Positions 2,102 through 64,000 of a stretch of 64,000 nt of DNA are shown here, piece after piece. Origin of the DNA: Polytrichum commune (taxonomy: Eukaryota > Streptophyta > Polytrichopsida > Polytrichales > Polytrichaceae); NCBI GenBank assembly GCA_950295325.1, contig OX485804.1:12648001-12712000 (forward strand), given 5' to 3'. The notes under the pieces are model-generated. The model had not been told where the DNA came from. It searched no databases and was given only the letters and a program-made list of their open reading frames with translations. The position numbers were made by a program, and so were the translations under genes. Each line of letters starts with the position of its first letter. Positions within the stretch are counted from its first letter, which is position 1.

Positions 2102-3550
2102 GGTAATAAGTAATGCGGCGAAGCAAAGAGAAAGTTCTCACATAGGCCTATGCAAATTGATAAGACGTACAACGAGCGAGAGCTTTACGGAAAGGAGTCA
2201 AAATTAGAGGACTTACTTGCGGATTATTGGCGAGCACCACACAAAGAAAAATTCCATAAATATTCGTGATTTCAAATAGGATTGACTACCGGAGGAGCGA
2301 TCTCTTTACGCCATGTTTTGAGGTTATCCTATAAGCAAATTTGGAGTACACATGGCATCCGGTAAGGCTACCCGAACTTAGCCAATGTTTTAGGTAAGAA
2401 AATCAAGCTAAGTAAAGTCGATCACGTAAGTGGTAATCATGGGTAGAGATGGAGGCGAGGCCTCGAGCCGAAATTGACACCTAAGTAAATCCCTACATGA
2501 TTACCTCACATACACTCTCGGTCATGAGTTACCATGATTAGCTTGTTGATAGGACTTGGCAAAATCTAATCGGATAAGTCGACGCACAAAGGAATTGATC
2601 TAGCGAAGATTAAAGTATTGATCTTGTCATCAAATCCCCATTATGGCACCTAAAGGTGATTGTGGCTTGAGAGAATATTCTGGGAATATTTCCAACCTTA
2701 GCCATGGATTAGGTATGTTCTAGGGAATTAAACAATTAATGCATGGAACCTTAGAGATTTGGCATCGAGAATAAACACTGATGACTAAGGGAATGTAGAG
2801 GGATTTTGATCACGTGAAAGCATTTAAGCAAGTAGTTGAGACCTTGAACGGAATAGAAGTTATTACATTAAGGACTTGAGCAAATGAATATGGATTTTAT
2901 ATAGGTTTACGAATCAATATAAGATAAATTCAAACCATGAAAGAAATTGTAGGTAGAAGATTTTAGATGATTTCAAGTTACGAGGGTTATGAACTTGAAA
3001 ATAGGTTTTAGATAACTTAAACCATGAAAGATATTGCATGAGGGTGTTTCTCTCGGAGAAACACTTAACCTTGACATTACACGTTTAAGAAACATTAAAC
3101 TTAAGATCTAAGGTACCTATCCATTTAAGAAATGATTTAAAAGGAACTACATACTGAGAGATACTGTAGAGGTGTTCTCGTTAAGGGCACTTTCAGGAAA
3201 CATAAACTTGACAACTTGGACACTTTATCCCTAGGGATTTATAAAAGGGTCTTGAACACAATATTCTTGATTAAGAAAAGTATTGTGTTACTAAATCTAT
3301 TTAAAGGTTTAGGAACACCAAAACTGGACATTAGATTCAGGGAAACATAAACTTGTAACCTTAGACCAACTACTCTTAAGGATATTGGAACTGCATGTTA
3401 CGGAATTGAGACACAGAAGAATGCAAACACCTTCACGAGACTTAGAGAAAAGCAGATCTAATTTTGGTGGGAGTAACTTCCATGTAAACCGGTTCAGCAG
3501 CGGGTTACACCGTCTGAGGTTGGATAGTTGAAGGTGGCCTCCACAAGTGT

Positions 3551-4431
3551 CTAGACCCGACTCCATTGTACATTGTTCACGTCGATCAGAAAGAGACTAT
3601 TGATCGTGATTGTTGGAGAGTATGGAAGTATGCGAATAAGTTTGGTAAACTCCAGCGAGAACGACTTGTAGACTTGCTTAGAGCGGAGTATCTTCTTGGC
3701 GCTATGAACCCCACAAGGAAGAGAGTACCTATTCCGGACCGGTTTAGAGAAGGAATGAAGAACATATTAGGTACACATAACACCGAGGTTACACCCGAGC
3801 ATGTCGTGTTGTCTATTGACAACAACTACAACTTCAGTGGTGGGACAGTGCTTGCACCAGTCCTGCACGCGTACATGGACACAAGGTTTCTCCCCGGAAT
3901 CCAGGCGGGAATAGGCATTTGGGGGGCGTGTGAAGGAATGTATGGATTCCACTCTGCAAGGTCTTCGTCGTGATTTTCCAGGCCTTTTAAACTCCTCCCA
4001 ATTGTGGACTGTGATTTCGGAATATCCGGATCGGCATTTCATTCAAATGTACTGAAGGCGCACCTGCCGAGCAACATCAGATTTTATGACGCATTATACC
4101 ATGGCACTAAAGAGGAGAATATTGCATCTCGCGATTGCTTCTTCGAATCAAATGCTCTTCGGGTTACAACCTGCATTTTTAACAATAGGGGCGAGTCAAG
4201 TTCAGAGGTGGCTGTGCGGCTCTGTGGAGGCCGGAAGATGTTGGACGTCCATGGCCCAGGGCGGTATAAACGTTATTCAGTGAAAAGGGCGTATTCCAAT
4301 GAGGAGGTCAAGTATTTATTCAAGGGGGAGTTGAGGATGCAGACCTACATAGATATTATCAAGCCTTCATGTCTTGAGGGGTTTTTTTTCCTCAATATTT
4401 GTGGAGGCAATAAGGCACACATAGTGGCTCA
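3551..4431 (+). pseudogene. N4/N6 DNA methyltransferase-like exon, frameshifted
   Basis: From about 3555 to 3960 one frame encodes a Lys/Arg-rich segment followed by HVVLSIDNNYNF, which sits where beta-class DNA methyltransferases carry the DPPY motif (here DNNY). The frame then shifts twice near 3.95-4.05 kb. The second frame runs to a strong donor (CAT|GTAAGT) after 4431. Its end, IIKPSCLEGFFFLNICGG, resembles the segment leading into the AdoMet-binding motif I. Splicing to the exon at 4740, in phase, continues it as HALGMKVVNI...LEVAKTKM, which matches the 'LGR-k-v-v-G-i-E...A-k-k-r-l' pattern of the family. Both key motifs are degenerate, so catalysis is doubtful. Apart from motif I the call is uncertain. 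Confidence 0.38.
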
Positions 4432-5204: not shown

Positions 5205-6680
5205 GAGGGTGAGGGTGAGGGTGAGGAAGAGCGGCAAGAGGAAGTTGAAGGACCACAAGCCGTGCACAGTGTCTATGACACTGTGGCATCTTTCTCGTCT
5301 GGGATCCCATCTACACCCGGCCGCGGGTTTGTACCATTTGAGGCATCTAGATGAAGTCAAGAACAACTAGATGTTCAACCTATGGAAGAATCTGAGGAGG
5401 ATGAGCGTCCGCAGTCAGCTAATCCTCCTGCAAGGTCTGGAGCGAAACCGACTGCAAGGAAGAAAATGAGAGCTCCTCGAAGGGGAAGGTCATCTCTACG
5501 TCCCCCTAGAGTTGGTGCCAACTTGCGGTCTTCGGAGGCAACGGAGCAATCTGGTCTTTGTCGCGAGGTTGAATATGGCCAAGTAGCGGATGTGGAGGAT
5601 GTTCCGCGGGATGCAATCATGTTTGAAGCTGTGCATGTTGAAGGGACAAGCACAGATTTAAACGTCAGCTCACCTGTGGAGGACGTTGCCGCTGCCGTTC
5701 TCGAGGTGCTAGGCCATGGGCGATCAAACCGTAGTTCCCCTGATGTTGTGGTTGCAGAAAAGCCTACTGTAGCGGCACCATCCAATGAAGCAGAGGAGGT
5801 TATTCGAACCGAAGTCATATGCTTGGATAGTGATGACGATGTGCCCGAGAGATGCGTAGAACTAGACGTGAGGGTGAAGGTCAGAGATCGAGTTCCACAT
5901 CGGGTTCGGGGGACGTTTGCTGACTACAGGACAGATGATTCCGAGGATGAAGATTATGGGAAGCCCGGGTACAACAGAGTGAAACTCAACTTTGTTGATG
6001 ACCCTTACCCGATGTTTGCTGAGAGACCTGACATGGGCAAGGAATCGGAGGGGAAGGACAAGGTGCATTTTGACCCGTTTGTGGACAAATACTTGGTAGA
6101 TGTGCCCGAGAACGTGCGATTGAATCTTGCGCATTTGTACAAGTCGTACGACTATCACAAGATGTTCGCTTATCTCTCCACACCAGCGTTTTGTGCAGCA
6201 GTGAAGGTGAAACATATTCTTCATGCCGCTGCATTAAAGAAAATGAGAAAGAGATGGACAACGTTCGAAGCTCCGAAACATCGTGAAGAACGAGGTCAAT
6301 TCGCGGGGTCCTCGGCCGCTCAAGCCGGCAGTGTTGTGGACTCGACGTTGGAGATCATTGACATTAGTGGAGTGCCAGAGTCTCCAAGGAGGGAAATCAA
6401 TGTTCCAGTTGCGGAGTCCTCAAGCCCTCATGTCGACCGGTATGCTGAGGGTCAACCGGCATCGTCCGAAATGGTACTACATACTTCCTTCCCAATTCAA
6501 TATTGTGTTCATCTTGGAAGCAAAGTCGTCAAGATTTCTAAAAGTGTCTTTGCAACAGGTGTTGGTTGCGGCAGAACGGATTGTCATCTCACGGAGTTCT
6601 CATGACGATCCTCCACATGCTGGGGATCCCCCCCTAAGCCAAGCTCAAGGTATCATATATAGTGTTATTTGAATGCAATT

Positions 6681-6808: not shown

Positions 6809-7068
6809 AGAGTATGGGTTTGAGCGTGTGGATCTCATATGTCGTGTGTGCATGTGGTCACAGGTCATACAGCCACTGCCGGAATACCACCGTCGGTACG
6901 ATATTTTACCCGATCTCGCAAAACTAATCAATAAATGTGCAGGCATTCTTTTATCTTGCATACTCATGTGTACCCAACGTGTTGATTCATTCGATAAAAG
7001 TCATGTAGAATCTACTGTTTCCTTAGATAGAAATCCTTTACAATGACTTTCAATTTTGTCATCGCCAG

Positions 7069-10037
7069 ATCCTCACCTCTCCAACCACTGTTGTCCATCG
7101 GAGAGAGAAGATATGGTTAGTGCTGGATGTGAACGGGATCCTGGTGAGGTCAACAAAGTGCGACAATGTCAACACCAGGAAGACTCTTGAATCACAATAT
7201 AGCCCTCAGATAACTGGGGAGTTGGCTCCACTCTTTCTTCCATATAGTGCCCTCATACCTAGGAAAGGACTGGGGCGGTTTCTGCGTTTTGTTCTTGCAA
7301 ACTTCCATGTTGTCATCTGGTCGTCGAAACTTATGAAGAATCTTCAGCCAATTGTCCGACACTTCTTCAATGGTTGTAGACAGCCAGAGTATGTGTTTGG
7401 GCAAGAATTGTGTCACACTCTGAAGGATGAGAGAGGACAAATTCTTCCTAGTCCTATGAATGTTGATTCAAGCTTCTTCATGTAAGACCTGTGCGCATTT
7501 TTTGAGTGAAGCCGGACGCATCCAGTGCCGCTGTGAGCCCAAAAGGGTGCCCACATTTAGTCTTAGACCCTTGAAACGTTAGTTGATGCACTTTGAAGTA
7601 GCATGTTACTTCACAAAAATATAAAAAGAGTGAAATGTTAGTCTTAGAAGTACCATGTTGTAAGAGGCTAGGATGTGAGTTGTTATTGTGTTTTTACCTT
7701 CGGAAGGATTTGAGTGAATGAGGATAGGTAAGGAGAACTTGGATTGAGTAGTTAGTGAGTAGGCTAGTACAAATGGATGGAGACAACCAAAGTGACTCAA
7801 GAGGCAAGTGCATTCGAATTGGGATGAATGGAGGATCACATGGAGCGCACAAGTGGACCACCTCATCATGGCCACTTAATGGGGAAGGCCCAAGGAAGAA
7901 TGCAAGGTGGAGGATAAGCAAATTCTCAAAGCACCAATCAAATCACGAGTTAAGCATCGTGGTTTGAATTAAGTGGTGAGCGACGATTTGGGAAAGTAAG
8001 GGGAGAAAGTTATGGCGGCGGAAAGCGAAGGAGGCTAAGTTTGGGTTGAAGCATCCCAAGTTTGGTAAAGTGTGGTAGGTAGAAAGCCAAGGCTAGTTAA
8101 ATGTTCGAATTAGGATCCTTGTTGATCATTTGAGGGATGAAGGCTTAGAAGATAGGATTGGCGCCTACTAAGTAGGAGGAAATCTCAAGGGCTTATCGTG
8201 AGCCTTGAGGGTGCTCACCCCCTCAAGCTTACTATATAATCCCTCATTCTTCCCTCACTCATCCTCTCTTTCCTTTGTACTCCAAGGCACCCCACGAGTT
8301 ATAAGTGTGGGTGTGGGAAGCCATATTGGAGCACATGTGTGTGCTTAGTTTTTAGTTTGAGAGCCAAGGCTTGTTAGCCTTGAAGAGGGCTTGACCTCTT
8401 GGTAGAATTAGTGTTGACGTGAAGGATTTTAAAGTTAATTCATGATTCCAATTTGTGGTACTTAAAGTTCATGTTTTGAATACACGTGGTTGCAAGTTCC
8501 ATGTTTAAGAGTTGAGCACTTGATGTTGTGATGAGTGCAAAAATATACTTGTGTGGATTAGTTAGTCTTAGTGAAGTTAGGAAATTCTCTCTCTCCCTCT
8601 CTTCTCTAGGAAGTTGAGCTCTTAGAGCTCGGGAAAAAATGTGGAATTAGGTAGGGGACTTAGTGGGATTAGTGGAATTAGGTAGGTGAATTAGGGGGAG
8701 GCCTTGGAGAAGCTCTCTTTTGTTCATTTTCTGGTTTTTGTGGTTGAGGGTGGAGAAACTTAGTTAGAAGTAGCCGCAGCTAAGGAGCTGGGTTTATGAA
8801 GGAGCTGGGTTTATTTAATTAGAAGTAAGGAGCTGGGTTTATTTAGTTAGAAGTAAGGAGCTGGGTTTATTTAGTTAGAAGTAAGGAGCTGGATTTATGA
8901 AGGACCTGGGTTTGTTTAGTTAGAAGCTAAGAAGCTGGGTTTATGAAGGAGCTGGGTTTATGAAGGAGCTAGGTTTATGTAATTAGAAAGTAAAGAGATG
9001 GGTTCATGAAGGAGCTTAGTAAATAGCCTACCTAATTAGCTCATAGACAAGTAGTTAGTTACATTATGCTAGTTAGTGTTATGTGTGGCTTTCACAAGTA
9101 AATGTATTTGAGATTGACTATAGAGAATAGTGTTTTTTTTAACACTTGCATCCTCTCTTTAAAAATAAACCACGTGCACAACTTAATGGAGAATGTGGAG
9201 CACTCTCGCGATGGCAAGACAAAGGAAGCAAAGACCAAAGGTGCGAGGGAGAGATTGACATAAGTCACATAAGTATTTCTTAATACTTAAAGGCTTATGT
9301 ACGGTATGGAGACACCAAGTGAGACCTCTTATAGTAGCGATACGGAATACACAAGTGATAGTTCAAGTGGTAGTATAGAGTCAACGGCACGGACTCCATT
9401 TAGGAGAGGGATATCCTTAAGGGCTTGTGTAGCTAAAGCAGCCGGATGGACGTTAGAAGCAAACAAAGACAAAATAGCACCCGAGCATAAGGAGGTTAAA
9501 ATAACATAGTTAACTTGTGCATTCTCCACATACGTATTGAAATCGTACATTGAGTTGTTAAAAGTGAAATTCCAGTTAAATCCAAGACCACTTGAAGGGT
9601 GAACCTTGTACTATGGACTCATCCAAGTCCAAATCCAATACCGCGGAGGAATGTGAGCCCAAACCCACTACTCGGACTACGGACGCTTAAGGGTGGGGGG
9701 TTTGGCCTCACAGCCGCATACGAAGCAACCCAGTCATAGAACTACATTACTTGTTGATGACTCCCCTTACAAATGCATCCCAAACCCTCCTGGGAGCTAC
9801 ATTAACCCTCCCCCATTTATGTCAACCCAAAGCTTGGATACTCTGCATAGTTACCTGCAAAGGCTCTTGAGTGCTCAGCAGTATGTGCCAGATTTTGTGG
9901 GAAGCAACCCTTATCCATCAGGACAGGGACCCTTCAATCTAGAGCTGCCAAGTTCTCAGATTTATAAGCAATCATTAGCTAGACATAAATTACTGACTTC
10001 TGCTCGTATGGTTCCAGAGGTGCAGATGTCAATGTAG
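7069..10037 (+). CDS. FCP1-homology (HAD-superfamily) domain protein, two exons
   Basis: Exon 7069-7481 starts after TCGCCAG and ends ...TTCTTCAT|GTAAGA. Exon 9740-10037 starts after CATAG and ends at a TAG stop. The join is in phase across a 2.26-kb intron and rebuilds the FCP1/SCP-type fold. HAD motif I is LVLDVNGILV, motif II is the VVIWSS segment, and motif III is LLVDDSPYK, followed by the NPPGSYINPPPF region. In active FCP1-type phosphatases motif I is DxDG[T/V]; here the second Asp is Asn, so Ser/Thr phosphatase activity is doubtful, although I recall plant relatives with the same DxNG. Upstream exons in matching phase (6864-6895, 6559-6649, 4740-6473) suggest it is the C-terminal part of a larger acidic protein. 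No separate start Met is evident next to the domain. Confidence 0.65.
7482..9739. other. Large intron of the FCP1-like gene, repeat-bearing
   Basis: No convincing exon is seen. A Ser-rich ORF at 9297-9509 is not recognised. The stretch carries a minisatellite at 8772-9015 and pyrimidine-rich sequence near 8.24-8.28 kb. Confidence 0.55.
8772..9015. repeat. Minisatellite with AAGGAGCTGGGTTTAT core
   Basis: About nine degenerate copies of 'aaggagctgggtttat' alternate with the spacer 'ttagttagaagt' or with 'ga'. The period is therefore about 17 or 28 bp. Confidence 0.85.
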
Positions 10038-16000: not shown

Positions 16001-18947
16001 GCAGTGAGTGAAGACCTTAAGATTTAGTGATATTAAATTATGATAGGTAGTGTAGAGTTGGTTGTAGATGCTAACCATTGGATTTAGACTTGGCCATATC
16101 TATAGCTAGTAGGCCTTGTGGTTGGAAAAGGGGTGGTATGTTAGGGTTAGCTTAGGCTTATTTTGGATCTCTATTTCTCAGTTAGGATTTTTTCTCTAGT
16201 CCCCTCTATATAGATTGCAACATTTATTTTGGGCGTTTCTCTCCCTTGTTGTACATATACTATTGAAATTAATGTTAATCAAAATTATTTGTTAATTTTT
16301 TTAGAATTGTTGCGTGAATTTGCGGGTTGTTGGAGTTGAAGGCCACGGCTATTTATCCGATTCTAAGTTTTGTTGGTTGTATTGATGGTTGTATTGATGG
16401 ATATTGAATGTTTAAAAACATGAGGTAGAGTCAATAAGTAGTGGTTAGTTGCTAGTTGTTGAAGCTAAATGTACAACTTTAGCTTTAGTTTTAATTGGAG
16501 TACTAGAGTGTTGGCTTTGAGGATGGCAGTCATCCATCCAACTACTATTCTTTGGAAGAGTGGCTTAGCCCCTAATTCTTTGACCACTCAGGCACTCCAC
16601 CCAAAGGTGGCGAATGTAAAGATTGGTAAAAGTTAGGTACTAAGAGCCAACCTCTTTTGTTGTAGTAAGTCTGTTATAGATTTTAAAATGGTTTCACTAG
16701 TATTAATAATTTTATTGAATGATTTACTTCAATGACTTTCCAACGATACTTTATACACCCAATTCTGAGATAAAATGATATAGTTAAAATGAATCTTTGA
16801 AGTTGTGGTAGTGTTTAGTCGTAGTCCAGCTTTGATAGGATTTTTTTAAGATTTTGGAATTATTTTTTTGTATTTTTTTTTGAGTGACCTATATCAATAG
16901 CTTTCTAATGGTATATTACACATCCAATTTGTATTAATAACCAGGGATATATGAATTTATAACTCAAGTTATTGTAGATCGTAATAAATTCCTCAAATTT
17001 AACTTGGCAGTTAATAATTGATAGATGGTAATATGAATAAGTTAATTGTTCTTGGATGATCTACTGGATGAATGTATTAGGTTTGTTCATTGTTTTTCTT
17101 GCATGATAACATTCTCCTAGTTATATGTCAATCTTGGGGTCTATCGAAGATAGCTTACAACTCGTCAGAAAGGAAATATGAGCCCGATCATAAATCTTTC
17201 GTTATTTTGACCTCAATGGGGTGATGCTACACCATAACATAAAGAAGGAATTGGACAGCCAAATGGGAGCATAAGGAGGAACACCCAACATCAACAACCA
17301 ACAACCAACAACCAACGTCAATGAGTAATCAATGGGAACACCATGAAGGCCAGCTCAGTATTCAATTGAATTTGTTACCGGCTGAGCTTATGTAGATGTT
17401 GCAAATCTTGGGCCATGCTCATTATTGAAATATAGTCAATCTCCATTGACCATTTTGTCTACAAAGTTTGTTAGTCTAGGTGCCAAATTATTACAAGTGG
17501 AAGTATATTTCGGGAGGTTTCCATAAGTTCAAGCAAATGTATATGCAAGGCTTGCTTCTTCAAGCTAAATGATTTTGGAGTTTGTTCTCAATATTTCGAC
17601 AACATTCTATGTCACATTTGCGAGGCTTATGTGATCATTATTTACATAGTAAGAGAATCTTCAGTTTGGATTCTTATAACTTTAGCATCTCAATCCAATC
17701 TCAAGACTTGAAATGACAACAAACTTTGTGATTTGAGCTGCATTTGCTCAGTGGAGATGATTCCCGAGCCCATATGATAACCATGCATAAACATATGCGG
17801 AGTTGGAAGTGCTTACAAGAGGCCATGTGTCTTAAAGGTATTAACTCATGTCATGCTTCTGTAATTGTTTATAGGATACAAGTAATGACCTTTATAACAT
17901 TTTGCAAGATAAGAGGAGTTAATGACCGTTGCAAAAGCAGCCCATCATGAGCTGTGTGGAGGAGGATAGGGAGCCAACAACATAAACCCTGAACCCTTGC
18001 TCCCCAAATCAGATTCATGGTGTTGGCTCTCAAGCCTCCTCTTCATAGCTCATGGTTGGGTATGTCGTGCCACAGACACCCCTCTAGACTTGGAGAACGA
18101 TGAATTTGTTCATACCTTCATTTGATTCTATAAATTTGTCCCCATTTTCACTTACAAGGAATTAGCCTGCAGGTGCTTCATAGTTCAATCAGTGAGAACA
18201 ACAAATCATAAATCAGGCACCACTCGTAGTTGCCAATTTCATGGAGAACCACGTTGATTTCCTGTTTCCTGTTCATTTGACTACCCCCAGGGAGCATGCT
18301 CTTTGCATCAAATTGAGGGAGGTATACATGCGCGGCTTTCTCGACTACAGTCGCATCGAGACCTGGGGTTTATGGAATGAAATTATAAACTATTAATTGA
18401 AGCCCTTCCGATCTTAGGATGGGGAATGTCAAATATTTTTTGTAGTTTTCTTCAGATTCAAAACTTACTACGGGCTTTGAAGGAAATTCCACAGTAGCAT
18501 CTCGGAGGTGGGGTTTATGAAATATAATTATGTAGAAACCATCCACCTCAACCTCTCATAGAACGGGCAAGGAATGAACTTACAATCTCCTTCCAAGTGA
18601 CTGCGGAATTTGAAGAACATAATCTGCATCCTGGATCGTCGACCATACCTAGCGTCGGCTCTTCTGAACTTTCTGTAATTGCAAGATCACGTAAATCCCA
18701 TACTTATAGTGGAACTACCAAGATAATGGAAGTCAAACTCCAAGAAATATCACGTGCACCTCTGTAGAGTTGGACGCCGAGTCGCAGGTTGGTTGCACAG
18801 CCTACATAAGCCCTGCAGGTGATCAGTACCGCTGGAGAAGTTTAGACACATCACACTGGGAACTGAAAGGTCGATCGAGAGGAAGTCTATAAGCAGAAAT
18901 AGCAGTAACATCATTCCTCTGCTGGAATCATCGATCGAGGTTTCAAG
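13091..18947. other. Long non-coding stretch
   Basis: AT-rich sequence with no ORF that looks coding. It contains a C10 run at 14457-14466 followed by a CT/CG-rich patch (14.50-14.72 kb), the stem-loop array at 14.86-15.27 kb, and otherwise unrecognised sequence. The last 200 bases probably hold the promoter and 5' UTR of the TPD1-like gene. Confidence 0.5.
14860..15267. repeat. Array of about 11 degenerate stem-loop units (core GTCTA)
   Basis: Each unit of about 30-47 bp holds a small inverted repeat around GTCTA or a close variant, for example TTGGAG-CTGTCTAT-CTCCAA, TTGGAA-CTGTCTAA-TTCCAA and GAGAG-TTGTCTAG-CTCTC. The linkers are of two types, 'tcattcattcatctt' and 'gtgcacatgtt'. The stem bases differ between units but often stay paired. 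Confidence 0.8.
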
Positions 18948-19493
18948 ATGATGATGACGATGGGGCCGGGGTCGTCCACCCGGGCGTTGATGATCATAGC
19001 CCTGGGATGCATTGTGGTCACCCAAATTGCAGTAGCTGCAGAGGCGGCGGAGGCTAGCGAGCCCTTATTGGCTGCGTCGAGTGGAGTGGTGCTGAAGGAC
19101 TTCGGGCCCTCTGGCTATTTTGAGCTGCCAGGGATCACCAGAGTGAAGCCATTCTGGAGGGGAAGGAAGCTGCTGGCTGCGTGCAGTTTGGGCGATGTGA
19201 ATGTGTTTGTCCAGATGGCGGGACTCACCAATGGCTCCGACCATTACGAAATCGAGATCAACTGGGACGGCTGCCAAGACTCCAACTGCCGCATGAGCAA
19301 CATCCACGTCTCCTGCCCGGGGTTCGTGACCGTGGACGTCGGCCCCAACGTTTTCAAGCACGTGAGTGGCAGCGACTGCGTGGTGCTCAATGGGGGCTCG
19401 TTGGGGTGGCGCGCAAGGGTCAGGATGCAGTACATCTGCAACATCAGTCCTCCGCAACTGCGTGCAACTCGAGCGACGGTGACGAACTGCTGA
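18948..19493 (+). CDS. TPD1-like secreted cysteine-rich protein
   Basis: An intact single-exon ORF of 181 aa. In angiosperms TPD1 is the secreted ligand of the EMS1/EXS receptor kinase and sets cell fate in the anther; homologs occur across land plants. Residues 12-33 are a hydrophobic signal peptide ending in Ala-rich sequence. A basic site RGRK at 71-74 is placed where TPD1 proteins are thought to be processed. The mature domain has Cys at 79, 109, 114, 123, 144, 164 and 181, with the family phrases CSLGDVNVF, EIEINWDG, MSNIHVSCPGF, VFKHVSGSDCVVLNGG and a C-terminal Cys. The start is the first of four closely spaced Met codons. The coding sequence is clearly more GC-rich than its surroundings. 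No neighbour suggests a linked function. Confidence 0.85.
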   Translation: MMMTMGPGSSTRALMIIALGCIVVTQIAVAAEAAEASEPLLAASSGVVLKDFGPSGYFELPGITRVKPFWRGRKLLAACSLGDVNVFVQMAGLTNGSDHYEIEINWDGCQDSNCRMSNIHVSCPGFVTVDVGPNVFKHVSGSDCVVLNGGSLGWRARVRMQYICNISPPQLRATRATVTNC

Positions 19494-50043: not shown

Positions 50044-53000
50044 ATGGCCAATGAAGGCCAGGATGATGGGAGGAGATCGCTTGAATCTCCGAGAAGACGT
50101 TCAGGTGCATCCAACAGTAATGACTCCATAGCCAAACGAAACAAACACGATTTCAGAGGCAGCGACCCATACGCAATGGAATCAACAAAGTCCTTAATTA
50201 AAATTCTCTTTGATGCATTGTTGTCTCTTAATAATCAGCATCGACAAAAGAAAGTTGACGCCAGCAAGCATGTGTTGGAGACTTACCATGACTCATTTCT
50301 TTATGGCAAAGTACCCCCCACTGTGATGGTTCGCGCAGCTCTTCGGACCGGCATTGTCGGCCACTTATGGCATTTTGTAAGTATACATCACTAAGCTTGC
50401 AAGCAAAATCACCCACGGCCTTTAATGCGGAAGTTTGAGAAACAGAAGTTGCACTGCTGGTTTGGTCATTGTTCTCTTCCTATTTATGCTTCAGATGAAA
50501 TGGAACACAGACTGCTATTGCAGAATCATCGAAGTGTTTACTTCATAAGGAATCTCTCTAGCTCAATGGCCTACAAATGCAAGCAAACTGAAACTTGCAT
50601 ATGTTCAACTTTGCTTTTAAACCCGTTCATCAAATCAACATCAGCTTCAATTAGTCAGACTTCTAAGATTTATGTTGTGGTATTCAATGCAGCTGGAATT
50701 TTTCTTTGCTCTCTCTTCAGGCGTATTATATGTTTATTCGACGTGAGTTTCAAGTTCCTGGACTCATTTTTGACAAATATACGAAAAGGACTTCTGTAGT
50801 TTTTTTCATAGGATGCAACCCTCATAACTTTGGCTAAAAACTTTTCTGTTACTAATCGAGCCAGACAACAAGATAAGGAACTGTTTGGCAAGCTGAATGA
50901 TCATTTGATTATGTGAATTTGAGCAGGTATAATACTACAACCCCATATAATTGGGTCACTCGAGCTCAAAACTATGTGAGTGTTGCGTTTCTTGTCGATT
51001 ATATACTGCGTGTATACAGGTATGCGGTCTATGTCCAGTTCACAACAACATTTTTATTTTCTTCTCTTCTGAAACAAACATTAAACTCGAATGCTTTTAC
51101 GTCAAGTTTGCACCGATGCAGTAGTACTTGCATTTATAGTTGATCATAAGAATTGCCAGTAGATCAAGATTAGGGCTTTTCTTAACGAACTATTATATTG
51201 GTTTGAAGATGACATGTCTGAAAGTTTTATGTAACAGTTGGTATAATATATATTTTGAAAATTTCTTGCAGTGAAGCACTACGTCTCACCTACATCTTTT
51301 CCTTTTGGGGTCTCATCGACCTGCTCAGTGCACTGCCCATTATATTTTTGTTTAAGTAAGGCAATCTCTCTACCTTCTTCAATCATTTGGGAGATATTGT
51401 TAAGAAACCCGAATTTAGAGGTTTGTTGGAGCATATTGTTCGTCCACGATGTGTATCTTCACTGTCTTTTGCTTCAAGCAGCATTCTAAGTGATTGCTAG
51501 AAATGCTGGTTGTATCTGCGTTGGCTTTCCTGTATGATCAATTTTGTTGTCCTAGGAAAATGCCTCAAATTTAGCCGTTGAGCTAGTCTATCTGCTGAGG
51601 TCCTTCCGGTGTACTGGGTGCCTTTAGAACTGCAGTCTAGCTTATCCTTCAGTTGTAAAGACGTCTTTAAGTCCAATAAACGGTGTCTGAATTCCATTGC
51701 ATGTAGGTCAGCAGTGACTGGTGGTCGGATACTTCGGCTTCTACAATTTCTACGCATAATAAGGTGAATGATAATTGACGAATATCTGGACTAGATTTCC
51801 TTGCCTGCAAGTCAATGTCCGATAATGGTGCTGCTTTGATCTGCCAAATGTGTTTAAATTGTCATTTGGCCAGCCTTCATTTGCACTGCTTAAACTTGTC
51901 CCACTATGTAAAATGACGCAGGATAATAAGTCTGATGAGTAAACTTGGAGTTGTTGGAAGTACAGTGGCGCAACAGATTCTCTTGCTAGTTATTTCAACA
52001 TTTGGAGCTGGTAAGGAAAGGGTTTTATGGTTCCTTCTCTGTTCTATTATGTTGGCTCATAATTGGCCTATAGCAATTATTAATTTACACCCTCAAATTT
52101 TCTTGATTACTTTTTTAAGAGATAATCATGGCGAGATGTGTCATCCTAATGTGTTCTGAGATTTAGTCTATTAATCTGCTTCAAATTCTCTCGATCAGGT
52201 AAATGTAAAACCACTACAGGATATAAACCACAATAAGAATGTGTGTCAATGTATTATTGAATTCCTCTGCAAATAACAAGATACTTGTGGGATACTGCAG
52301 TTTTCCTTACTGCAGGGCTTATTCAGTTTGTGGAATATTATGGAGCAACACCGAGTCAGCAATGTCCTGAGGAGGGATGTATTAACTTCTGGGACGCGTT
52401 TTACTTCACAATTGTCACTGTATGTATCATTTTTTTTTGACGTTCAGCCTTCTAATCATGTAACTTTGCATCTACTTGTGAGATTGAAGTTAGATTTTAC
52501 TATCAGCTCAGGGAAAGAGAGGTGATCATGTTGCGTCATATCAACTTGGAATCAGCATTTACTGAACCCTTCATTGTGGAATAACATGATATTTATGTGC
52601 TTTGGTTGCAAAGACAAGGTTTGTGTCCCAGATTCATGTCTGTAAGGTCCTGCTTCACTTGTCCTGCAGTTTATAAACATCCTGATTTGGGCTATTATCT
52701 TAATTTGATGATGCTAATTGCAACCACAGGCACTTCTACCTGTCCTTTCTTTTGCAATGAATTTCTTTGATTACTTTAGAAAACAACTCTGCACTGTCAA
52801 TCTCTTTATTTCTTGCTTTTCTCGCTCTCTGTTTGGCAGATCTCTACAGTCGGATATGGAGATATAACCCTGAAGACACAGGTTGGACAACTGGTAGCTA
52901 TGATTGCAATCATCTTAGCTTTGACCATCCTTCCTATCCAAATTGGTCGCATCACTTACCTTGCCTCCCGGAGGTATCCCATGGATCTAATGAAGTGATT

Positions 53001-56000
53001 TGCTTGTGCTGACAAAGTGTATCCATTGGTGCATGTTTGCCCATGTTCTTGCATTTAATAACCCTGAGTTAGATCTCATAATAGGATGATAGGGACCCTA
53101 TCAATTCCTTTCACAGGTTGACATCAAGAAATGGGTGCGTAAAGATTCAATATTCACTCTTGGCATCGTCCATCTTTAGTGACAAGTCGTGCTCCCGCAC
53201 AGGATGGTTGCCAGAATTCTTCTTTTCCGATTTTGTCTAGTTAGGTAAGTGTGTCACCCATTTAGGTTGGCATCTAAAACCTAACTATCTCCTTTCTTGT
53301 GTATTGCAGGCCTTATGGAGCAGCGTTTAGTGGCAAGAAGGTGGTTGATTCTCGATATCTAATCATCAGTGGAAGCATCTCGTTCCAAGCTATTCAAGAA
53401 TGTCTGGCAGAGTTTTACAATCCTACGCATTGTGAAGGTGTAATGACTAACTAATTCTTAAACCTGCCCTTACAAATCTCAGAATTGCCTTGATTTAAGT
53501 GACACGTAATGATGCTGGGGGTTCTAGGCTTGTTATATTGCCTAAATTAGTGATTGTTTGTACACTTCATACCTCATTCTGATAAAATTGTTTTTACTTA
53601 GCCAACTAGTAGTCAGCTTGATTATGAATTTTCCAGGGCTGAAGTTCTTGTTCTGCACAGATCTGGAGGTATACCCTTTACGAGTTACAATTTTGGCACC
53701 ATTCAGCCCTTCGTGAGTATATTTCCTTTTGAATCCAAATTACAGATTCACAAAAAGTCAAATTTTGTGAACTTACGTGTTTTTTCATCTCCAGTAATTC
53801 ACAGGTTTGAGAATCATGAATTTAATGCACATTACTTGCAAGAAGATAGTGAAGAATCGGTAACTTGATATTGTTTTCATTGCAAATTGGCAGGTTTGAG
53901 CTCAAGCAACTGATATCACTTTATTACGGTCTAGTGGAGTTCATAGAGGGGTCTCCAATTCGACAATCAGATTTGGAAAGAGTTGCTGCAAAACGAGCAG
54001 CTGCCTTCTTCTTACTTGCTGACAAAGAAGTGGAGGTACTGTTCTTTGGCATCTGATAGAAAAAGTAAACCCAGTTCATGTTGTATTTGCAGCAGTTAAC
54101 TGACGATCTATATTGGCGGGTGATATCTGATTTGCAGGAACCTGCTGTACTGATCTTGTGAATTCTTAGATCACTTGATGTTGGAATCACGTCAACCTAG
54201 GTCTACTCTTCTTATCTGGTTCATTCAATTCTTACATGGCTTTAGTTTGTAACAGGACCGGGCTGTGGAAGATGCAGCCCAGATTGTGAAGGCACTTGCA
54301 GTTCACCGTTTCTGCGAGGATAAGGTGCGGATAATTGTGGAAGTACTGGAGCCAGAGACACAGAGCAGTGCTGTCTGGGATGAGACGGATAGCGGAGGAA
54401 TTGAAATTATATGTCCCATTAAAGTACACTACAGGATGATTGCACGCAGGTACACTACAGATTGAATATTCTGCAACATCCGTAATCGCATCACTGGTTG
54501 TTCATACTTTCTGTAAATTGGCAACTTGACAAGGCCATGTGAGGTTGGGACTGATGCTTTACATGGTGATTAAAGTATCATTTGAACCTGGTCATGTATC
54601 TGAACCTGGAATTGGCGATATTTGAATTCAGGTCTAGAGAGATTTTCATGATCAGAATATAACATCAGATTATGGTAGATATTAAGTTGCACTGCAAAGT
54701 GCTTCTCGAAAGGTAGACTATATTGGCTTTTTGGTTGGTATCTGTAGTTTTCCTTTTCGATTTATGGATCACCTCTAGTCTTACTCTTCTAACAACGTCC
54801 CATTCCTGTCTGCTCGCACATGTCAAAAGAGTTTGTATAATCTTAACATTGGAAAATACGAGCTTGAGGGCCAGGAGAACCCACGATTTTGTCAAGACTC
54901 CCAATAAGAAAAATAAAATATAATTTGATGTGCAATTAGAGATTAGGCTGTTTCAGAGTAATCAGAGGATCCCAAAATTTATCACTCTACTTTCGTGGTC
55001 TATACAGATATGTAGCAAAACCCTCTCACTGTGATTGTTTATCATCTAGAGGTTGACATTAATGCATGCTGGTGATTGATTGTGGATGATGAAACAGCTG
55101 CCACGTGAAGGGGTTGTACACATTCATTACCAACCTGTTTACTTCCGAGATAAAGATGAAGAAAATGCCCGACCATTTTTTCATGTCAGAGTACTTCCAC
55201 AGTTATGATAATGAGGTTTATCCCCTAATTTTCCCAAAAGCGTGTTATGGCATGCTGTTTGAAGAGGTACACCACATGTTCATCACTTCCAACTGTCTCT
55301 TGATTGTGACGATGTAGTGAGATATACAAGGGCTGTTTTATTCAAGTCAAAGGTTTTAAATTGGTGTAATAATTCAACAATAATTTTGTGTTTCTCCAGG
55401 CTGTTGATGGTGCTTCGTGCCCCAGAAAGAACAGGAAATTTTGAGCTCAATGTCAGTAATGCACTAGTGTTTGAAGAACTCGCAGTCAGTCTGTTATCAA
55501 TTGAAAGTTTCCATCTCGTCCTCAATTTAAAATCATCACCTTCGTTTTCCTTTCCAACATGTGATCTTCTCCTGAACATCTTCCTAGTAATTATGTTTTT
55601 GTCTTCCTTTTGATGCCTGTTTTGATGCATATGCCTGTTTGACAGGTTGTTGAATTTATATTTGACAATTTCAATGTCGTGCTTTTCGCACTGGATGTTG
55701 ATGTGCTACACAAGGAGAAGGGTCATAATATCCGCAAGGTATTATCTCGTTTTCCTCTATTTATGGCATTGAATTCAAAACTGCTGTTATTCCATAACTT
55801 GTCAGTGAGAGTCTACTTTGTGAGTAACCTTAATCTGAATCTACTGTACATCATCTCAAGTGCATGGGTTCTGGTATGCCTTCCTTGTTGTATGCTGGGA
55901 AAGAATGGATACAAGAACACAGCTTGTATGTTAGATTTGACTGACATAAGTCGCACATAACTACGACGCACCCAAAAAAAGTCATCCTAAATTATTAATA

Positions 56001-58308
56001 TAAATATAAATATTATTAAAAAATTTCTTAATTTGGTTCTGCCATTGCCATTGTCATTCTCTTGAGCAATCCATGAGGATCAATACACCATAACTTTCTG
56101 GTTAAAAGCAAAGACTCAAGAAAAGACGAAGCCCTGTTTTTTTAATCAAAATTCTAAAAATCTTCAATAGTGTGCAATGCCCTAGAGCGCAACTCTGAGA
56201 CAAACGATTGTTTAATTGGTTTGATGCCTCTTTGATGCAGGTATTACTGCACCCTAAGGGACACATTATTCAGGCTGATGACGTTGGCTTAGTCATATCC
56301 TGGGACTTGCGTAGTGCTTATGCAATTTCCAAAACTGGAGATGAACAGATGGAGCACAAGAAATGGAAAAAAAGGAAAGATCGTTCAGCCATTGAGCTTC
56401 AAAAATACCGGAGAAGAGCGCCCACTAGTGTCAGTGGCCGTGGACTGAATGGAGGGGACGGTAGTGTGGTGTACAAGGCAGATACCGGCATCCAAGAAGA
56501 ATCAATTGAAACACGGATGAGATCTGCCATCTGCAGTAGGTATGAATGGAGCACCCATGGGGCGGATGAAGAAGTTGAAGAAGGTATATGTTGATTCTTG
56601 TTCAAAGCATCATTTTAAGGTTTTCAATGCTTTTATGAGTCTCGGCTATACAATGGTTTTGTTGCATACTGTAAGCATATCTGCAATAGAACTACTGAAT
56701 TCAACACATCCAATGGTTTGAAACCTTTTATTTTTCCTGCGAAACTTTGTGGTGCTTGTGATTAGACTGATGTGCCGTCAACGCAGGCTATGGGAAAAGC
56801 CGCAGCTTAGACCGTGAATCTGATTCATCCAAAAATAGTGGTTCTGAAGATGAAGGTTCTTATCCAAAAGGGATGTCATTGGAGAAAGCAACGGAAAGTT
56901 TATTAGCATGGCCGCCTATTCCAGCTCATGCTCATCCTCATGCATCAGTTTTGGAAAGAAGAGCAGATATCATACTTGAGAATCTCAAGGAACGAACTGT
57001 CCCTGTGGTAAATCTGATGATACCACACATCCTAGTCTGCTGTCAGAGCCACTGGCCACAACATATTTATTACTTTCTGAAAGAGTTGCGGAAGCCAAAT
57101 TTCCCAAACCCTCCAATAGTAATTTTGCATCCGAATGATCCCACAGCCAGCGAGTGGGGCACCGTGGGCATATTCGAGGATGTCTTCTTTCTCAAAGGCT
57201 CTCCTCTCTACGAACTTGACCTCATGAGAGGTGGAGTTCTTCAAGCAGGTCTGCAATTCTTTATGCTCCCACCCGTCCACAAAGTGAAGAATTGTTAAGT
57301 AGCCATCTACCTCATGACATGTAATGGTGGCAAGCCAAGACATAAACTTGGAGCTACTAGCCTGAGAATATAGGTGCAACATAAACTTCTAGATTTGAGG
57401 ATTGTAGCTGTTGCGAACATGGCAGCCATGGAAAATGACAGTGTTCTTTGTGTCTCAAATTGACCCCTGAGGTGCTCCCTCATTTTCCACTTCAAGCACT
57501 TGACATGACTTGTTTGCTAAGTTGTTGCAGAAAAAGTAGTTGTTCTTGGGTTCCAGGACGCACCTGTTGACATCAATGGCGAGGGAGTGCAAGATCGAGC
57601 AAGGGCACAAAGAAGGATTCCGTCAACACAAAGAAGCGATGTTGATAACATTGTGGTGGCTGCCAATGTGGAAAGACTTGTGGGCCACAAGGCGGAAATT
57701 CTGATTATTGACATGCAACATACATTTGCATTTTACTACCTGCGACCCAAGCTCGAGATCCACAAGAAGCAAATCTTACGGACAGATTATCAAAGAAATC
57801 CGGATGCATTGGTTCACTTTGGACCTCCATTCATGGAAGGCAAAGCAGTTTCTCCAGTTCTCCTCGGATTCCTGTTGTAAGAACCACTGACAAACTTTTT
57901 GATCAAAAGTGAACCCTTTCAAATAATATGTCCTATCCTTTCCTTCTATGTTAAGGACTTGAGAATCCACATCTCAACTCTGCTCGTGTGTTTTGCAGAC
58001 GTTCATCGTTCTATAACCGAAACACAATCTCCATAGTGGAACAGCTAATTGAAGGTGGGTATGTGGAGATTGATGGCACTTTGAGTTACGATGAAGTGCG
58101 AGTTTTGAACCAGATTCCTGTCCCACAGGAGTATTGCAACAGAAGTTACAATGACCTTTTCATTGGTCTCCTGCGAGATAAAGGCATCCTCCCTTTGGGC
58201 TTATACCGAGCTCGTGGAACTTTAGGGTCCCCAACTGCATATGTGTTTACCAATCCTCCAAAGGAGACAATTGTAAATGCTTCGGATCTAATCTACGTTC
58301 TATCCTGA
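50044..58308 (+). CDS. BK (Slo)-type calcium-activated K+ channel, 18 exons
   Basis: Exons: 50044-50376, 50693-50742, 50927-51019, 51272-51355, 51707-51763, 51922-52010, 52301-52419, 52840-52973, 53310-53437, 53637-53712, 53894-54035, 54256-54449, 55098-55266, 55646-55738, 56241-56583, 56787-57248, 57531-57876, 57999-58308. All introns are GT-AG and every join keeps phase, giving 1073 codons plus TGA. S1 lies at about 112-128, S2 143-158, S3 166-186 and S5 220-246. S4 has R194, R197, R203 and R206 at three-residue spacing. The filter is TVGYGD (278-283) and S6 is 289-318. RCK1 begins near 335 and is followed by an acidic/His-rich linker (about 640-770). RCK2 begins with HILVCCQSHWPQ at 782 and runs to the C-terminus. 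No animal-type S0 segment and no Asp-rich calcium bowl are visible. It probably forms a tetrameric, voltage- and ligand-gated K+ pore. Confidence 0.93.
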
Positions 58309-61898: not shown

Positions 61899-63562
61899 TC
61901 AAAGTTGGATTTGCCTGCAAAGAGAAATAGTGGTCTCAGATGGGCAGTAGGGACACTTGAAAGTTCGGTTATGGCCTTTGGCAAGCTTCTGGATAGAATG
62001 TTTACAGAGGACATGGCCACAGGGGAGGAGCATGGGAGGGTTCTCAGCAGTGCTTTGATCGCGTGACACTGGGCATGCAAAAATGGAGTGAAACTGGAAT
62101 CCTTTGTCAAGCTCAATCTCAACTGGCAGCTGCCTCATCAACTGCCATTCGTGTTTCTTGTTCGCCATGAGCGTCGATAGTTTGAGTAATGTGGGGAGAG
62201 CCTGCACCAGAACGGAGTATGTCAGAAGTTTGTCTGGAAAGATCAGGCCCTGTACGCAAATGACTAAGGTAAGTGGACCTAAAACAGACACCTTTTGCTT
62301 TGCAATCACTTCTCCTAGGATATTAAACACATGATTAGTACCAAATGATTACGAAATCCAAATCAAGGCCGTAGCAATTCTCATTATTTTGGGAGCCGTG
62401 TTCAGTTCAATCACTTCAGTGAAGGATTTATAAGGTAGACAACCTTTATTCAATAACTTTACTTAGTAGGACACTATATTTGAGTGGTATGTGGTTTGTG
62501 GCTCCAATAACAGGTAAAAGATGTGTGTTTAGAAGATAAGGGAGTGCGTGCTCAAAATACATTAACCATTATAGGCTCAATAGTCAACATAATTGGGGGG
62601 ACCTATATGACCATATAATGAGCACAAGAATCTTCACTCTGATAATGAATAAGATATTCATATGAGCTCCAGACATTATGAGGAACGCGACTATGGACTC
62701 AATTTGGATTTGCTATCCATCTTGTACTAATTGTGCGCTTCATATCCTAGGATAACTGGGCTGCTTGTAAAAATTAACCATTTAAGACCCATCTACCTTA
62801 CTGATGAAGTGTTACAAATTTCCAAAGTGTATGAGGAGCAGGTTAATGAAAGTTTTGGCGCTGAATGATGAGATACAAGGCGACAGTGCTCACCTGAGAA
62901 CCAGCAGAGATTGTAACCAACAACGGACTCTCATACGACTGCCCTAACAGAGCACAGCATTCACGCATAAACTTGAGAGCAATGGCATCCCAATGTGCAG
63001 GAGACAGGAAATCCGCATACGGGGAAGATTGAAGCCTCCCAGCCCACAGCATACATCCCATCAATCTTTGTATTTCTGGCATGTGTGTATCTGCAAACTG
63101 CTTGAATGAGCCTCGGGCATACTCGAGTGCTGACAACCTGTCCCCTCTCTGCAAGAACTGGAGGAATTGTAGCCTCTGGAGCTTAAATTCGAGCGACGAA
63201 TTCCGTTGTGTTAAAGTCCTGCGGTTCTCCTGTGCCCAATGGAGTGCTGGACCTAAATTCCCCGCGCGCATCTGCTCCAGAATTTGATACATCTCGTAAA
63301 ACTGGACCTTCAATGTTGAGGGATCCTCTCCTTGCGCCTCGTTCACAAAGCAGTCACCCAGGTTGAAGAGCCCCTGTCTGTAGAAATGCAAGGCCACAAT
63401 CTGGTTCATGAGGTGGGTGTCGAATTCAACATCTCGATATGCTTTTGCCAGGTCAGGATTGAAACACTTGTCAATCAGCTTCCCACACTTGTTGATTGCA
63501 AGATTTGTATCCTTCATTGGAGCTGCCGCATGGTTATGTGGACAAACCTCCTTCAACCTCGC
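61899..63562 (-). CDS. RMD5: RMD5 homolog, E3 ubiquitin ligase of the GID/CTLH complex (5' end outside window)
   Basis: Two coding exons, 63562-62894 and 62201-61899, join in phase across a 692-bp intron and give 323 residues to the stop. The first carries the CTLH/CRA helical region (VEFDTHLMNQIVALHFYRQG; SSLEFKLQRLQFLQFL; SPAHWDAIALKF). The last carries the degenerate Gid-type RING (CPVSRDQ...LLPCGHVLCKHSIQKL...FKCPYCPSE). In yeast, animals and plants RMD5/RMND5 pairs with GID9/MAEA as the catalytic RING heterodimer of a multisubunit ubiquitin ligase. The exon at 63562 starts at a clear acceptor (TTATGCAG), so the N-terminal LisH part must lie beyond base 64000. Order and length fit plant homologs well and no lesion is seen. 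Confidence 0.92.
62468..62692 (+). repeat. Dispersed repeat family 2, copy 2, inside the RMD5 intron
   Basis: Related to 22331-22556, with several small indels. Confidence 0.7.
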
Positions 63563-64000
63563 CTGCATAATTCATAATATTACTCAGCATAGTATATATG
63601 TGTGTTCTCTTACATGAGAATACATATGTAGATAATTCTCTCACAATGCTCAATCTCACGTTGATCTTGAATTACTTTCCTTGTTATAATTCATCTTAAA
63701 TAGGGTTGACATGTGGAACATCCTATCACGTTTCTCGTGTGTCAGGTAAATCATGATATAATTTGGTGTAAGATTCTGTGAATCTCAAAATTAGAAAGAG
63801 AACGCATGCACTCTGTTGAGTAATGTTATGAGTTCGAAGGCAATGATCGGAAGTAATCAAACTAATCACTACACTAATGCCTCGTGACTGCAGCAAACCA
63901 AGATTTCCAAGTACAAGGGTAAAACCAGATGTGTCCATGCCAAGAAAGATGCATTTAGGGCTGGTAAATCTTGGAGATGTATAATAGGGCTTCTTGCATT
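63563..64000 (-). other. Partial intron of the RMD5 gene
   Basis: No exon is visible in this stretch. The upstream RMD5 exons are expected beyond the window edge. Confidence 0.6.

Follow-up and report, generated by a model that had tools for sequence, protein, structure and literature searches.

Does a moss, in the stretch of Polytrichum commune DNA analysed here (64,000 nucleotides, hereafter the window), carry a complete gene for a BK/Slo-type K+ channel and, if so, what kind of channel would it encode and how did the lineage come by it? The reading that we favour, with considerable confidence, is that the gene specifies the alpha subunit of a plant Slo channel, predicted to release K+ on depolarisation without BK's main Ca2+ sensor and to have been inherited from streptophyte-alga ancestors. 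It adds another intact gene to a channel class lacking in the flowering plants examined, and it bears on K+ release in early land plants.

Judged by its sequence, the encoded protein is a Slo-family K+ channel. A transmembrane pore with a K+ filter is followed by two RCK domains, and the Slo-specific Pfam domains all score above their curated cut-offs: PF03493 BK_channel_a (57.3 bits), PF22614 Slo-like_RCK (two stretches, 118.5 bits, E 1.6e-34, bearing out the two RCK domains of the preliminary description) and PF21014 Slowpoke_C (28.9 bits), as do PF00520 Ion_trans (59 bits) and PF07885 Ion_trans_2 (51.4 bits). When the protein was compared with PDB chains using phmmer, Drosophila and vertebrate Slo1 topped the ranking (E about 4e-49), with Slo2 (5e-24) and Slo3 (2e-23) coming after them, among the best 60 of 119 distinct sequences; identity to 7ynz_A over S2–RCK1 was 122/442 aligned residues, or about 28%. 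The Pfam E-values and the PDB matches at this level exclude chance similarity. The label BK/Slo-type given to the gene previously is therefore upheld by Pfam and PDB as far as Slo membership goes, but not in the sense of an animal-type BK, since no S0 was found by hydropathy, the Ca2+ bowl, D367 and E321/E324 are replaced, and the pore–S6 part is nearer to Slo2, as detailed below.

S4 is positively charged, as in Slo1, through R186, R189, R195 and R198, so that the regularly spaced arginines noted earlier are present at four of five regular positions (R186, R189, Q192, R195, R198), the remaining one being Gln. In the alignment, this Gln occupies the position of BK R213, the main voltage-sensing residue of BK (PMC4319557). 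The selectivity filter, STVGYGD at residues 264–270, contains the TVGYGD motif as described, and together with the charged S4 it supports voltage-gated K+ conduction, although the R213 position is Gln. The N-terminal region of moss and Selaginella BK-like channels has been described as exceeding that of plant Shaker channels in length, and a seven-segment topology with S0 was speculated upon in the same paper (PMC3410407). Here, hydropathy does not support S0: for windows starting at residues 1–70, the best 19-residue mean was 0.97, in a stretch that carries charges, although the test is also weak for S0 because S1 itself is weakly hydrophobic, reaching a best 19-residue mean of 1.15. The negative conductance ring of BK, E321 and E324, accounts for as much as half of its outward unitary conductance (PMC4319557). 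Here these positions read R299 and Y302, and the unitary conductance is probably below that of animal BK.

The Slo1 ligand sites given in PMC4319557 were mapped onto pairwise alignments at about 28% identity, the Ca2+-bowl comparison being made on the Drosophila chain with Drosophila-to-mammal numbering matched by motif. The bowl, QFLDQDDDDDPD in Slo1, reads QILRTDYQRNPD in the moss protein (residues 929–940), with D892, D895 and D897 changed to R, Y and R; the side-chain ligands D895 and D897 are missing, their positions being occupied by Y935 and R937. In RCK1, D367 reads T adjoining a 12-residue gap, the position of R514, which in Slo1 contributes to the RCK1 Ca2+ site via its main chain (PMC4319557), reads E. 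Of the other Slo1 ligand positions, E374, H365 and H394 read R, N and Y respectively. E535 is conserved, as E532, and the Mg2+-site residue E399 is kept, so some divalent-ion sensing may remain. From these pairwise alignments we infer a gating ring that makes no use of the animal Ca2+ bowl; the predicted loss of bowl and conductance ring is directly testable.

Affinity to Slo1 or to Slo2 depends on the part of the protein considered. The piece spanning the pore, S6 and the start of RCK1 finds its best match in Slo2 (KCNT1, Slack), at 49.5 bits versus 37.5 with the best Slo1, including the LP[IL]Q that closes S6, whereas the RCK1 body is much closer to Slo1 (59.1 bits versus 20.8 with Slo2). 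The moss protein also differs from Slo2 in its charged S4, the S4 of Slo2 not being known to carry such charges. With Slo1 (BK, KCNMA1) it shares S4 arginines at R207/R210, the TVGYGD filter, two RCK stretches, BK_channel_a and Slowpoke_C, but it lacks S0 by hydropathy, has lost the Ca2+ bowl, D367 and E374, has Gln in place of R213, and has the E321/E324 ring replaced. Because the pore part favours Slo2 and the RCK1 body Slo1, we file the protein as Slo family, neither Slo1 nor Slo2. Plant Slo proteins may even form a third branch that diverged before or around the Slo1/Slo2 split, a tentative idea to which we give somewhat less than even chances. It would accommodate, in one protein, a pore exit like that of Slo2, an RCK1 like that of Slo1 and a voltage sensor that carries charges, together with the replacement of most animal Ca2+/Mg2+ site residues and a positive residue at BK's negative conductance ring.

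As the alpha subunit of a plant Slo channel, the protein would have six transmembrane segments followed by two RCK domains, and four such subunits would assemble around a K+-selective pore, the tetramer being expected from the family and the filter and pore match being evident in the protein itself. Depolarisation would move S4, as its arginines suggest, and open the pore, while the RCK gating ring would relay a cytosolic signal, probably one other than Ca2+ at the animal Ca2+ bowl, the side-chain ligands there being replaced. Judging from the literature on relatives, the channel would serve the cell by releasing K+ on depolarisation, either at the plasma membrane or at the vacuole. A Marchantia Slo channel is termed depolarisation-activated and pH-recognising in the title of a 2021 preprint (cited in PMC11617655), Chara vacuoles show a K+ channel of large conductance that cytosolic Ca2+ activates and that a review attributes to the BK gene of Chara (PMC11617655), and in moss vacuoles the opening of fast, K+-selective channels is raised with 0.1 micromolar Ca2+ (PMC3722460). 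If they come from the Slo family, these Ca2+-raised channels of Chara and moss would speak for an effect of Ca2+. The Chara channel would also suit a true BK (Slo1), with large conductance and cytosolic Ca2+ gating as in animals, as would the first place of Slo1 in the whole-protein PDB search (best 60 of 119), the Slo1-like RCK1 body and the conserved E535 and E399; but with S0 not found by hydropathy, R/Y/R at D892/D895/D897, T at D367 and R/Y at E321/E324, we consider this alternative unlikely.

The favoured plant Slo channel belongs to a class that has already been described, and the novelty implied by the preliminary description is not supported, since plant BK-like genes were published in 2012 and counted across streptophytes in 2024. 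Both Physcomitrella (Phy-pat-BK1/2) and Selaginella (Sel-moe-BK1/2) have two BK-like channels according to Gomez-Porras et al. (2012; PMC3410407), who found no counterpart in Arabidopsis, rice or poplar and did not decide on an origin. The BK gene counts in the 2024 New Phytologist review are 2 in Klebsormidium, 1 in Chara, 3 in Marchantia, 3 in Physcomitrium, 4 in Selaginella and 1 in Picea, against 0 in Amborella, Arabidopsis and rice (PMC11617655), and a slowpoke-like gene appears in the legend of an expression figure from Physcomitrium infection RNA-seq (PMC8401727). The earlier statement that the class is absent from angiosperms agrees with these two accounts for the flowering plants they cover (PMC3410407, PMC11617655). 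Like the channels of Physcomitrella, Selaginella and Marchantia, with which it was compared by description, the moss gene comes from a non-flowering land plant, and it is an ordinary member of the known plant Slo family.

Between the two origins proposed previously, survival on this lineage or acquisition by it, survival is favoured because Klebsormidium and Chara have BK genes in the review's count (PMC11617655), and a Slo-type channel surviving on the non-flowering plant lineage is plausible. The published counts would then point to inheritance from streptophyte-alga ancestors followed by loss in flowering plants. It seems improbable that the plant lineage acquired the gene horizontally, whether the donor were a protist, a fungus, an animal or a bacterium. 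The 2012 authors could not exclude a fungal or protozoan source, and beyond animals, Selaginella and moss their best match was a Phytophthora channel, at about 28% identity over about 500 residues (PMC3410407); however, the Klebsormidium and Chara genes fit vertical descent (PMC11617655), the moss gene has 18 introns, and its relatives in prokaryotic contigs, five confirmed loci among 41 candidate stretches, are all short and distant, each matching between 19 and 143 residues of the query from the pore to early RCK1. In viral contigs, four stretches fitted a pattern but none was confirmed as a relative.

The gene model behind these comparisons was obtained by splice-site reading and a phase test. 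The gene lies on the + strand at 50044..58308, complete as claimed from the start at 50044 to the stop at 58306–58308. It comprises 19 exons and 18 introns, not the 18 exons and 17 junctions counted earlier, and its coding length of 3201 bases corresponds to 1066 codons plus a single terminal stop, in place of 1073 codons. At introns 1 and 2, two phase-compatible solutions exist, equal in length and differing only within residues 112–120; in both, all introns (122 to 648 bases) are GT-AG and no stop precedes the last codon, and the exons do join without phase error. An exon 1 end at 50380 with exon 2 at 50721–50742 scores 10.2 bits versus −0.95 for the alternative when donor sites are rated with a weight matrix derived from the remaining 16 donors of the gene, and S1 hydropathy is higher in this model (1.15 versus 0.89), while the Ion_trans profile on the membrane part does not separate the two (62.8 bits preferred, 63.5 alternative). 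We favour the 50380 end on this basis, the choice there being uncertain; the whole-protein PDB and Pfam searches were run with the model ending exon 1 at 50376, from which the preferred one differs within nine residues. A decaying or non-expressed copy, which the uncertain splice choice at introns 1–2 might suggest, is very improbable, given a frame intact across 19 exons, GT-AG at 18/18 introns and conserved domains that reach the C-terminus.

Exons of the Slo-type channel gene, with positions in the window and the parts of the protein they encode
Feature	Position	Strand	Content and remarks
Exon 1	50044..50380	+	start codon, long N-terminal region without evident S0, start of S1; alternative end 50376
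Exon 2	50721..50742	+	end of S1; extends to 50746 in the model with exon 1 stopping at 50376; chosen on donor score and frame
Exon 3	50927..51019	+	S1–S2 linker, S2
Exon 4	51272..51355	+	S3
Exon 5	51707..51763	+	first part of S4: R186, R189, Q192, R195
Exon 6	51922..52010	+	end of S4 (R198, codon split with exon 5), S5
Exon 7	52316..52419	+	turret, pore helix
Exon 8	52840..52973	+	STVGYGD selectivity filter, S6 with LPIQIGR
Exon 9	53117..53134	+	18-base micro-exon, S6–RCK1 linker; placed on phase
Exon 10	53310..53437	+	start of RCK1
Exon 11	53637..53712	+	RCK1
Exon 12	53894..54035	+	RCK1
Exon 13	54256..54449	+	RCK1; BK_channel_a domain begins
Exon 14	55098..55266	+	BK_channel_a domain; E532, equivalent of Slo1 E535
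Exon 15	55646..55738	+	later RCK1, end of BK_channel_a domain
Exon 16	56241..56583	+	end of RCK1 match, RCK1–RCK2 linker
Exon 17	56787..57248	+	start of RCK2; Slo-like_RCK 774–863 begins here
Exon 18	57531..57876	+	RCK2; lost Ca2+ bowl region QILRTDYQRNPD, residues 929–940
Exon 19	57999..58308	+	Slowpoke_C / TrkA_C-like end, stop codon

Three candidate exon features were set aside. An extra exon at 55400–55492 was dropped: exon 14 ending at 55266 and joined to 55646 aligns with Slo1, and the extra exon placed after the full exon 14 brings stops into frame. The exon start at 57522, the acceptor tried first, was superseded by 57531, and a candidate small exon near 53203 is not needed by phase. 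The 55400–55492 segment (+), which lies within intron 14, is bounded by AG and open in one frame, and is possibly a cryptic or alternative exon. A tblastn search of the window with the protein (E up to 1) matched its own exons only, indicating that there is no second gene copy within the 64 kb at that sensitivity.

Ten neighbouring open frames in the window were scanned with Pfam, and four of the ten gave a match. At an E-value limit of 0.01, Pfam matched none of the long frames 1–903, 3518–3970 and 5355–6602, which may code for mobile elements or repeats, whereas the frame at 7027–7482 (+) matched NIF (NLI-interacting factor-like phosphatase) weakly, with E 2.6e-06. In the open frame at 18909–19490 (+), the domain matched (E 2.2e-12) is TPD1_C (Tapetum determinant 1), a plant family, and such a neighbour fits a land-plant origin of the DNA. 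Downstream of the channel gene, frames at 61902–63571 (−) with CTLH/CRA and RING-type zinc-finger domains resemble an Rmd5/GID-complex E3 ligase subunit.
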